From Emticicia oligotrophica DSM 17448 (GTDB lineage Bacteria; Bacteroidota; Bacteroidia; Cytophagales; Spirosomataceae): a stretch of 64,000 nucleotides of DNA. Within the stretch, counting starts at the first letter, position 1. Every line of letters begins with the position of its first letter. The position numbers were made by a program, and so were the translations under genes. The DNA is taken from contig NC_018748.1 of the NCBI RefSeq assembly GCF_000263195.1, forward strand, positions 248,001 through 312,000, read 5' to 3'. The notes beneath the pieces are model-generated. The model was not told the origin of the DNA. It did no database searches and saw only the letters and a list, made by a program, of their open reading frames with translations. Below are positions 56,759 through 59,102 of this stretch, one piece after another.

Positions 56759-57640
56759 CTATGCCTTCGGATGAGCCTGCTGAAATATTTTCTTGAGTTT
56801 ATCAATCGAATTGTGCGTGTAAACCTGCGTAGCTGCTAAACTTGTATGTCCGAGCAAATCTTTGATGGCATTCAAATCAGCTCCTCTATTGAGCAAATGC
56901 GTTGCAAATGAATGCCGTAATACGTGTGGACTACGTTGTTCGAGTGAAGTTACTAAAGACAAATATCTTTTAACCAATCGTTGAATAAATACTGGATACG
57001 CTTGCGTGCCAGTATCGGTCAAAATCAAATAATCATCTGAATTATCATCAATGAGGTCATTTCTTTGAGCTAAATAATCTCTAATCGCCCCCACTAAGTT
57101 TCGATTGATTGGAATTACTCGATGCTTATTTCTCTTTCCTAAAACTGTTAGTGTATTATTATAGAGATTCAAATCGCTTAATTTCAAACCAATTAATTCC
57201 GATAAACGCATTCCTGTACCATAGAGTAATTCTAGCACCAATTTATCCCTCATTCCAGCAAAATCATTCGAAAACTCTACCTCGTCCAAGAGGTTTTCCA
57301 TAGGTTTTTCTTCTACGTATTTCGGTAAGCTTTTATCGGTTTTCAATGCTTTAATTTTCACCATAGGGTCGGTTACAATAATCTTATGGCGAAGCAAGAA
57401 GTTATAAAAAGTACGCAAAGTAGCTATTTTTCGATTGATACTCCGATTTTCCATCTTTTCTTCCGCCATGCTTGCAATCCATGAGCGAATCATCTGAAAA
57501 TCTGCCTTTTCGGGGTCTTTGAGGTCGTACTGAAATTTTAGGTAGGCTGAAAATTGCTTCATATCGCCCTCATAAGCCGTAACGGTATGATGGCTGAGGC
57601 GTTTTTCGAATTTGATATGTTGTAGAAAATAAGAAACCAT
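56759..57640 (-). CDS. xerC: XerC/XerD-family tyrosine recombinase
   Basis: This 293-residue chromosomal dimer-resolution recombinase has an N-terminal SAM-like core-binding domain (residues ~1-90, KRLSHHTVTAYEGDMKQFSAYL). The catalytic domain has Arg in LYGTGMRLSELIGL, Lys in LGKRNKHRVIP, His-x-x-Arg in HVLRHSFATHLL, the His of LGHTSLAATQ, and nucleophile Tyr in VYTHNS. All catalytic residues are present. It lies downstream of rpsU on the same strand, a common housekeeping arrangement in Bacteroidota, so it is not a phage integrase. Confidence 0.92.
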   Translation of the reverse strand: MVSYFLQHIKFEKRLSHHTVTAYEGDMKQFSAYLKFQYDLKDPEKADFQMIRSWIASMAEEKMENRSINRKIATLRTFYNFLLRHKIIVTDPMVKIKALKTDKSLPKYVEEKPMENLLDEVEFSNDFAGMRDKLVLELLYGTGMRLSELIGLKLSDLNLYNNTLTVLGKRNKHRVIPINRNLVGAIRDYLAQRNDLIDDNSDDYLILTDTGTQAYPVFIQRLVKRYLSLVTSLEQRSPHVLRHSFATHLLNRGADLNAIKDLLGHTSLAATQVYTHNSIDKLKKIFQQAHPKA

Positions 57641-57831: not shown

Positions 57832-58026
57832 TTACATTTCTTCGTTGCTTCTTAATTGAGTCACGTATTTAGCGTGAATAACTTCGTTACGACGAGCTAC
57901 TGATGGTTTTTCGAATGCTTGACGCTTACGCAATTGACGCAATACACCTGTTTTTTCGAATTTCTTCTTAAAACGCTTCAAAGCTTTATCAATAGATTCG
58001 TTTTCTTTTACGTTGATTACTAACAT
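57832..58026 (-). CDS. rpsU: 30S ribosomal protein bS21
   Basis: bS21 is a small basic protein of the 30S platform near the 3' end of 16S rRNA. The 64-residue product MLVINVKENESIDKALKRFKKKFE matches the family at once, with an Arg/Lys-rich helix continuing (FKKKFEKTGVLRQLRKRQAF). In Bacteroidota bS21 helps hide the anti-Shine-Dalgarno tail. Its own mRNA carries an almost complete Shine-Dalgarno (58035-58045), which fits feedback control of bS21. It is probably cotranscribed with the recombinase gene, although the gap is 191 bases. Confidence 0.97.
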   Translation of the reverse strand: MLVINVKENESIDKALKRFKKKFEKTGVLRQLRKRQAFEKPSVARRNEVIHAKYVTQLRSNEEM

Positions 58027-58034
58027 GATTTATA

Positions 58035-58045
58035 CACCTCCTTTC
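58035..58045 (-). promoter_or_regulatory. Extended Shine-Dalgarno of rpsU
   Basis: On the minus strand the sequence reads GAAAGGAGGTG, with AGGAGG ending 10 bases before the ATG at 58026. This is complementary to the conserved 3' tail CACCUCCUUUC of 16S rRNA over 11 bases. I noticed no other start in the window with a comparable Shine-Dalgarno. It fits published work on bS21 self-regulation in Bacteroidota. Confidence 0.9.
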
Positions 58046-58056
58046 GTTTAGGGCTG

Positions 58057-58087
58057 CAAAGTTCATAATTATTTTCGGTAAAACCAA
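58057..58087 (-). promoter_or_regulatory. Promoter candidate of rpsU
   Basis: On the minus strand TTG (58087-58085), 20 bases, then GAACTTTG (58064-58057) fit the -33/-7 layout with one mismatch in the TAnnTTTG box. Transcription would start near 58050, giving a leader of about 25 bases holding the Shine-Dalgarno. Confidence 0.5.
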
Positions 58088-58187
58088 ACATATATAAAGA
58101 AAACACACTGTTTTTGAAAAATACGTTTGGGTTTGTAGTAGTTTTCGATACTTTATCAGAATTTGCATAAAATTTAAAACCAAAAAT

Positions 58188-59102
58188 ATGCGTACAGCCA
58201 TCATTGATTTAGGCACTAATACTTTTCATTTATTAATTGTTGAAGGCTCAAAAAAGATTTTTCAAACCTCAATACCTGCCAAAATCGGCAAAGGTGGCAT
58301 TAGTCAAGGCGTCATTTCAGAAGAAGGTATTCAGAGAGCATTGACGGTTCTCAGGGGCTTCAAAGAAGAAATTGACAAGCATGAAATAGCTATTGAAAAA
58401 ATATATGCTACTGGTACAAGTGCTATCAGAAATGCAGGAAATAAAGCTGAATTTATTGAGCGAGTTGAGCAAGAAACAGGTATTAAAATTAGAGTTATTT
58501 CGGGCGAAGAAGAAGCCGAACTCATTTGTCTGGGCGTGAAACAAGCCATGAGTATTCCTGAAACTTCCATGATTATGGATATTGGCGGAGGTAGTGTGGA
58601 GTTTATTATCTGTAATGATGAAAAGATTTTTTGGAAACAAAGTTTTGAAATTGGTGGGCAAAGATTAATGGATAAATTCATGAAATCTGACCCAATTTCA
58701 ATGCGTTCGATACAAATGATGGATGATTATTTTAGAGAAGCCCTCCTACCCTTAGCTAATGCTTGTCATCAGTATGCTCCTAAAGTTTTAATTGGCTCTT
58801 CTGGTTCATTCGATACGCTCATTGATATGCAATACATGAAAGAAAAAGGCCAACTACCTGAAGCACATGAAGTAGCATTTGAATATCAAATTCCAGCATT
58901 TTATTGGGCTTATGATGAATTGATTTTTAAAAATCACGAAGAAAGAATGCAAATTCCGGGAATGATTGAGCTTAGAGTTGATATGATTGTGGTTGCCATG
59001 TGCTTAATTCGATTCATTATTCAATTGCACGAAATTCAAAGAATTAGGGTTTCAAGCTATGCTTTAAAAGAAGGCATTATGGCTCAAGCATTGAAAAATT
59101 AG
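58188..59102 (+). CDS. Exopolyphosphatase (Ppx/GppA family)
   Basis: This 304-residue member of the ASKHA phosphatase family hydrolyses polyphosphate or pppGpp. It starts at the phosphate-binding ATIDLGTNTFHLL-like element (IIDLGTNTFHLLIVEG). YATGTSAIRNAGN, RVISGEEEAELICLGV with the catalytic Glu, and IMDIGGGSVEFII follow in the usual order. It is shorter than E. coli Ppx and GppA because the C-terminal HD-like domain is absent, which is normal for this group. It is divergent from rpsU. Confidence 0.9.
   Translation: MRTAIIDLGTNTFHLLIVEGSKKIFQTSIPAKIGKGGISQGVISEEGIQRALTVLRGFKEEIDKHEIAIEKIYATGTSAIRNAGNKAEFIERVEQETGIKIRVISGEEEAELICLGVKQAMSIPETSMIMDIGGGSVEFIICNDEKIFWKQSFEIGGQRLMDKFMKSDPISMRSIQMMDDYFREALLPLANACHQYAPKVLIGSSGSFDTLIDMQYMKEKGQLPEAHEVAFEYQIPAFYWAYDELIFKNHEERMQIPGMIELRVDMIVVAMCLIRFIIQLHEIQRIRVSSYALKEGIMAQALKN

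Follow-up and report, generated by a model that had tools for sequence, protein, structure and literature searches.

In all likelihood, the rpsU gene of Emticicia oligotrophica DSM 17448 is governed by the same kind of self-control as in Flavobacterium johnsoniae, with a leader presenting an extended Shine-Dalgarno (SD) sequence in which 12 positions would pair with the 3′ tail of its own 16S rRNA. The gene was found in a stretch of 64,000 nucleotides, referred to here as the window, and it is regarded as a further case of a known circuit, the mechanism itself being already published. The genus Emticicia is a member of the Spirosomataceae (Cytophagales), and the element puts this circuit into a genus whose family, among the genomes read, mostly lacks it.

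To begin with the gene, a single match to rpsU was found in the genome (5.22 Mb, 6 contigs), and the 10 other genomes of the genus all presented it with identities of 92-94%. The leader reads ...GAACTTTGCAGCCCTAAACGAAAGGAGGTGTATAAATC-ATG, with GAAAGGAGGTG at 58045..58035, AGGAGG at 58042..58037 and the ATG at 58026..58024, all on the minus strand; the SD string, its position and the spacing of 10 nt had been correctly described in the initial annotation. Farther upstream, GAACTTTG was considered promoter-like on the basis of TAnnTTTG, which we take to be the Bacteroidota -7 consensus, and TTTG was likewise considered -33-like (Table 1). Moreover, -7-like sites appeared at about the same place in relatives of the genus (e.g. 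TACATTTG, TACTTTTG, TAATTTTG and GAATTTTG). The position of this candidate element would imply an rpsU leader of roughly 30 nt, most of which would be occupied by the SD sequence. The folding of the leader RNA was no better than that of shuffled sequences (z 0.11), so the SD sequence does not seem to be obviously buried.

Table 1. Coordinates of rpsU, of the elements in its leader (positions in the window) and of the putative toxin-antitoxin operon (genome and contig positions).
Feature	Position	Strand	Basis
rpsU, ribosomal protein bS21, 64 aa, Tyr at 54	57832..58026	minus	translation; PF01165 (E 1.7e-19); TIGR00030 (E 7.2e-19)
Extended SD GAAAGGAGGTGT, paired to 16S ACACCUCCUUU (11 Watson-Crick pairs, outer G.U)	58034..58045	minus	-19.0 kcal/mol; 12 pairs in duplex
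Spacer TGTATAAATC, 10 nt, AGGAGG to ATG	58027..58036	minus	sequence
Candidate -7-like promoter element GAACTTTG, Bacteroidota type	58057..58064	minus	sequence; similarity to consensus
Candidate -33-like TTTG, 20 nt before the -7-like element	58085..58088	minus	sequence; similarity to consensus
Putative toxin-antitoxin operon, 69-aa antitoxin and 133-aa PIN-domain toxin	G000 C5:3367964-3368596 (L320:1484-2116)	plus	pattern search, profile search

Two 16S genes were found in the host genome, both with the 3′ end GGAACACCTCCTTTTTAGAG and the tail GGAACACCTCCTTTTTAG. Both copies contain the canonical anti-SD CCUCC, whose lack had been named in the initial annotation as evidence against its reading. 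The helix AAAGGAGGUGU:ACACCUCCUUU comprises 11 Watson-Crick pairs and one G.U pair (about -19 kcal/mol), the first three bases of the spacer (TGT) pairing with the 16S rRNA as well. The complementarity of 11 bases that had been proposed earlier is thereby borne out as a long pairing, but not in its details, as the tail then assumed (...CACCUCCUUUC) is not that of the host, which has U instead of C after CUUU and an A before CACC. By a manual count, this A presumably corresponds to E. coli position 1532. Because of this difference in the 16S end, the outer G-C pair becomes G.U, and an additional pair is gained between T58034 of the leader and the A before CACC. The outer leader base was G in the own genome and A in 10 of the 11 Emticicia genomes, and the leaders with an outer A would form 12 Watson-Crick pairs if their tails equalled that of the host.

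The 16S tails of relatives were recovered from few genomes (an RF00177 match in one of 30 relatives and a pattern match in 31 of 242 genomes), so the comparison of tails with leaders rests on three Cytophagales genomes presenting both a tail and an SD-bearing leader, in which 12-13 positions can pair with the own tail. This pairing included one G.U each in the own genome (G000) and in G175, and none in G024, with the tail ...CUUUA and the leader TAAAGG. The 16S gene of G175 (L037, G175:C15) was matched in two pieces, with an odd stretch directly before its GGAACACCTCC end. The 16S base preceding CACC, either A or U, was considered for covariation as an independent proof of pairing, and this approach was dropped. 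This base was A in most families with a tail read and U in family f11 and one genome of family f14, and the contrast between A and U was unavailable because the rpsU leaders of these two families (six and six) carried no SD sequence.

To establish how rare such a pairing is, the 19 bases upstream of each start were scored against the host tail with duplexfold of ViennaRNA, not with the published free_scan. The sample consisted of 717 ORFs, each 60 aa or longer, from 844 kb (the window and 39 stretches of 20 kb, 16% of the genome), with starts taken mechanically from the longest ORF, some of them wrong in the real and mock windows alike. The strongest pairing of all 717 was that of rpsU, with -19.0 kcal/mol versus -11.2 for the next best ORF, which leaves a gap of 7.8, and the own rpsR, scored separately, reached -1.7. 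In a mock region located farther upstream, one of the 717 windows was at or below -13 (best -14.0), as was one real window. Real starts paired less often than mock ones at cut-offs of -4 (58 vs. 88), -6 (30 vs. 41) and -8 kcal/mol (8 vs. 9), for which reason the genome can be considered SD-poor, in agreement with what had been stated at the outset; at stronger cut-offs, the counts were 7 vs. 5 (-9) and 4 vs. 5 (-10). An abundance of equally strong SD sequences, which had also been named as evidence against the reading, was not found either, as they were uncommon in the sampled part of the genome.

The search was extended to the whole genome with the pattern AAGGAGG-N4-12-ATG, which gave 63 matches vs. 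86 for the reversed control. Furthermore, GAAAGGAGGTG occurred four times, and the three occurrences besides rpsU resembled coding sequence (by eye, 140 bases each). A total of 22 of the 63 matches were examined individually or known, namely 20 viewed in context, rpsU and one more. Of those viewed in context, 18 lay within frames of 100 aa or more, or antisense to them, and were not start-like, and the remaining two corresponded to a putative antitoxin gene, described below, and to L319, a 336-aa ORF whose ATG is 4 nt away from AAGGAGG, inside the end of a 129-aa frame. Across the 11 genomes of the genus, AAAGGAGGT-N3-11-ATG had 102 matches vs. 160 for the reversed control, of which 55 were viewed in context and nine were known otherwise (five rpsU, three antitoxin and one more).

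The rpsU SD sequence was genus-wide in Emticicia and patchy in the family. All 11 genomes of the genus had [A/G]AAAGGAGGTGTAT before rpsU, and of the 65 third codon positions in the gene, only 25 were invariant across the same genomes. The leaders of a wider set of 160 genomes (159 readable; G251 included and G079 left out) were scored against two tails (...UUUUU and ...UUUCU), the better result being kept and the set being chosen and not random: 30 closest matches, 10 genomes of the genus and 120 picked among the matches listed. Among these matches, 36 of 159 leaders were at or below -13, compared to 0 of 160 mock windows. All 11 Emticicia leaders reached this value. In the rest of the family, among the matches listed, an SD sequence was present in 2 of 26 leaders, both of one genus (2/2), with 0 of 24 across nine further genera; named relatives without it included Spirosoma, Runella, Larkinella, Flectobacillus, Pseudarcicella, Fibrisoma and Aquirufa. 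Moreover, a metagenome-assembled genome labelled Spirosomataceae (L054) had the rpsU SD sequence. Beyond the family, and again among the matches listed, 14 of 24 leaders of family f18 and both leaders of family f21 were at or below -13, as were none of the 44 readable leaders from twelve other families of the order and 7 of 52 from other orders of the class. Family f18 is probably Cyclobacteriaceae, which is a guess. In one genus of this family, the rpsU leaders of two genomes (L156 and L161, from G202 and G211) read GAAAGGGGGTGT, in which the second A of AGGAGG is replaced by G; this would either make a G.U pair or hint that the 16S core has changed in these genomes' genus.

Since 24 of the 26 family leaders were SD-less and the bS21 ends mostly kept the Tyr, tail occlusion, if universal, would not need the rpsU feedback. 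These observations count against the self-control reading, as do the G at the outer position of the own leader and the mock window at -14.0. With Emticicia carrying the SD sequence and most of the family lacking it, close relatives of both kinds are therefore available for comparison.

According to the main text of McNutt et al. 2023 (PMC9976891), F. johnsoniae ribosomes lacking bS21 initiate more quickly on rpsU, and less readily on those SD-less mRNAs that were tested. The published mechanism, with bS21-free ribosomes favouring rpsU, agrees with the initial annotation. The same text takes as its criterion a pairing below -13 with rpsU as the best ribosomal protein gene, a combination assigned to about 20% of Cytophagales, mainly Cyclobacteriaceae, and in it the control by bS21-lacking ribosomes appears limited to rpsU. 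This main text names neither Emticicia nor Spirosoma, and the supplement may list Emticicia. Very likely, the Emticicia rpsU circuit would be the same as that of Flavobacterium, and by homology to F. johnsoniae we infer the tail pocket, the preference for rpsU and the feedback. In complete ribosomes, the 16S tail would be kept in a pocket of bS21, bS18 and bS6, resulting in a slow start on rpsU, and in ribosomes without bS21 the tail would be free and the start on rpsU faster, whereby the supply of bS21 would track the need for it.

As far as the main text describes it, the F. johnsoniae circuit resembles that proposed here in the extended rpsU SD sequence, the pairing beyond -13, the SD-poor genome, the CCUCC in the 16S rRNA and Tyr54 in bS21. 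They differ in that the Emticicia tail is U-rich at its end and has an A in front of CACC, and that the Emticicia genome has a second start with an equally long SD sequence, whereas the published control appears limited to rpsU. Another gene of the pocket proteins, rpsR, was reportedly first described with an SD sequence by Jha et al. in 2021. Such SD-bearing rpsR genes, coding for bS18, occur in some Bacteroidia orders, according to PMC9976891 and PMC8710568. These systems are alike in that the gene of a pocket protein carries the SD sequence (here rpsU), but the rpsR of Emticicia lacks it in 11 of 11 genomes, with pairings of -3.5 kcal/mol or weaker.

Regarding the second start, the initial annotation had noticed none comparable to rpsU in the window, and none was called there, but elsewhere in the genome the SD sequence of a putative antitoxin gene proved equally long. 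This start was found through the AAGGAGG pattern match at C5 3367968, with the leader TATATCTTTGCAAAAAAGGAGGTGTATC-ATG, and its SD sequence, AAAAAAGGAGGTGTATC-ATG, forms 13 pairs with the tail of the host, at -18.5 or -19.2 kcal/mol according to the upstream stretch scored. For the 69-aa ORF, no family was matched in Pfam or NCBIfam (E up to 1) or in PHROGs (E up to 0.01), and the 133-aa protein starting 4 nt after the antitoxin stop matched PF01850 (E 2.2e-9), with the VapC models far below their cut-offs. Its acidic residues D, E, D and D, found by eye in LLDTN, GELKAF, KNDLWIA and DNDFDH, are presumably the catalytic residues of the PIN domain. From its sequence, the pair looks like a VapBC-type toxin-antitoxin system. 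It shares with type II VapBC the small ORF followed after 4 nt by a PIN-domain protein, and it differs in that the putative antitoxin matches no family and that its start has an extended SD sequence in an SD-poor genome. A longer upstream start is possible for the own antitoxin, but in L353, the gene also listed as L321, the frame is already closed one codon before the SD-led ATG. No antitoxin relatives were found in plasmids or viral contigs, and distant plasmid relatives of the toxin were found in 8 records.

The extended SD sequence may mark a small regulon, composed of rpsU and one or more toxin-antitoxin operons, the antitoxin of which would be made by SD-competent (bS21-poor) ribosomes, a reading that we consider possible but doubtful. 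The operon was present in only 4 of the 11 genomes of the genus, which speaks against it; in its favour, the antitoxin SD sequence was strong in all four copies (-18.5, -18.3, -18.3 and -14.8). In the three copies with ORFs listed, it was flanked by carA-like and thrC-like genes (named from translations), and the operon was thus considered to be inherited within the genus, which favours this reading; the copies being orthologous, they represent few independent events. AAAAGGAGGT was invariant in the four leaders, but with two of these identical there are just three different leaders, and the stretch directly before it, with the T-run and promoter-like sequence, was nearly invariant too, with variation farther upstream, so that the antitoxin SD sequence is not singled out by conservation. 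Homologues of the antitoxin appeared in 12 of 390 genomes including the own one. The 11 others, all from the order, held fifteen distant homologues, and 10 of these homologues were followed by a PIN-like ORF (by eye). The scores of these fifteen, with start codons chosen by hand, also argue against the regulon, as 14 were above -5 and one was -12.9. The latter (L326, G004:C1:630090-630242) has AAGGAGG before its ATG, and the rpsU of the same genome (L171) has no SD sequence.

If the rules of F. johnsoniae hold, the antitoxin would be a second client of bS21-free ribosomes. With an occluded tail and an SD-poor genome, an SD sequence this long would be expected to select SD-competent ribosomes. 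It is rather unlikely, although worth stating, that bS21-lacking Emticicia ribosomes also preferentially make the PIN-type antitoxin through its 13-pair SD sequence, which would make toxin restraint depend on the condition of the 30S platform, for instance while ribosomes are being assembled or after bS21 has been stripped off or replaced. In a milder reading, the SD sequence would merely lift the output of the antitoxin above that of the toxin. With a second, unrelated client in the same genome, if true, the feedback loop would no longer be private to rpsU but part of a small regulon, and the antitoxin gene would matter more than the rpsU element, given that the view published in the main text of PMC9976891 is of a control limited to one gene. 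In the portions of the literature covered, nothing was found naming a link of extended SD sequences or bS21-lacking ribosomes to antitoxins.

Other starts led by AAAGGAGGT were found in the sister genomes, so that part of the antitoxin pattern may be due to chance, and this also weighs against the regulon. The plausible ones were three in L369, one gene in L374, L380 and L387, and those in L376 and L382; outside L369, the SD sequence of these starts sits within the final part of the preceding frame. In view of these further starts, the strong-SD genes of the genus would form a small set, not strictly two. The three starts of L369 (G245:C1:718600-722600, positions 1366, 1670 and 2533) lie in 1.2 kb, with AAAGGAGGTG close before the ATG. 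One of these genes codes for a phrog_874 protein (E 5.6e-66), and the segment may therefore be a prophage with SD-using genes in an SD-poor host. The gene shared by L374, L380 and L387 (G245, G247 and G251) starts right after AAAGGAGGTG and was absent from the match list of the own genome.

Self-control of rpsU in the manner of F. johnsoniae remains the preferred reading of its SD sequence. A plain strong ribosome-binding site, used with or without bS21 and providing high constitutive bS21 with no feedback, appears quite improbable: the wild-type ribosomes of F. johnsoniae likewise form stable complexes on rpsU mRNA (main text of PMC9976891), as this explanation would have it, but a plain strong site should be common, and SD-like pairing was rarer at real than at mock starts between -4 and -8 kcal/mol. 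A chance purine run in a short leader deserves next to no credence, as it is contradicted by the position and length of the SD sequence, its presence in 11 of 11 genomes of the genus and the gap of 7.8 kcal/mol to the next ORF, even though AAAGGAGGT itself showed no enrichment in the sampled part of the genome (7 found vs. 7.6 expected).

Finally, no match to the rpsU region was found in plasmids, and phage-borne bS21 gave four weak matches. In the window, a tyrosine-recombinase-like gene lies downstream of rpsU (56759..57640, minus strand) and a Ppx/GppA-phosphatase-like gene is divergent to it (58188..59102, plus strand), both named from their translations.
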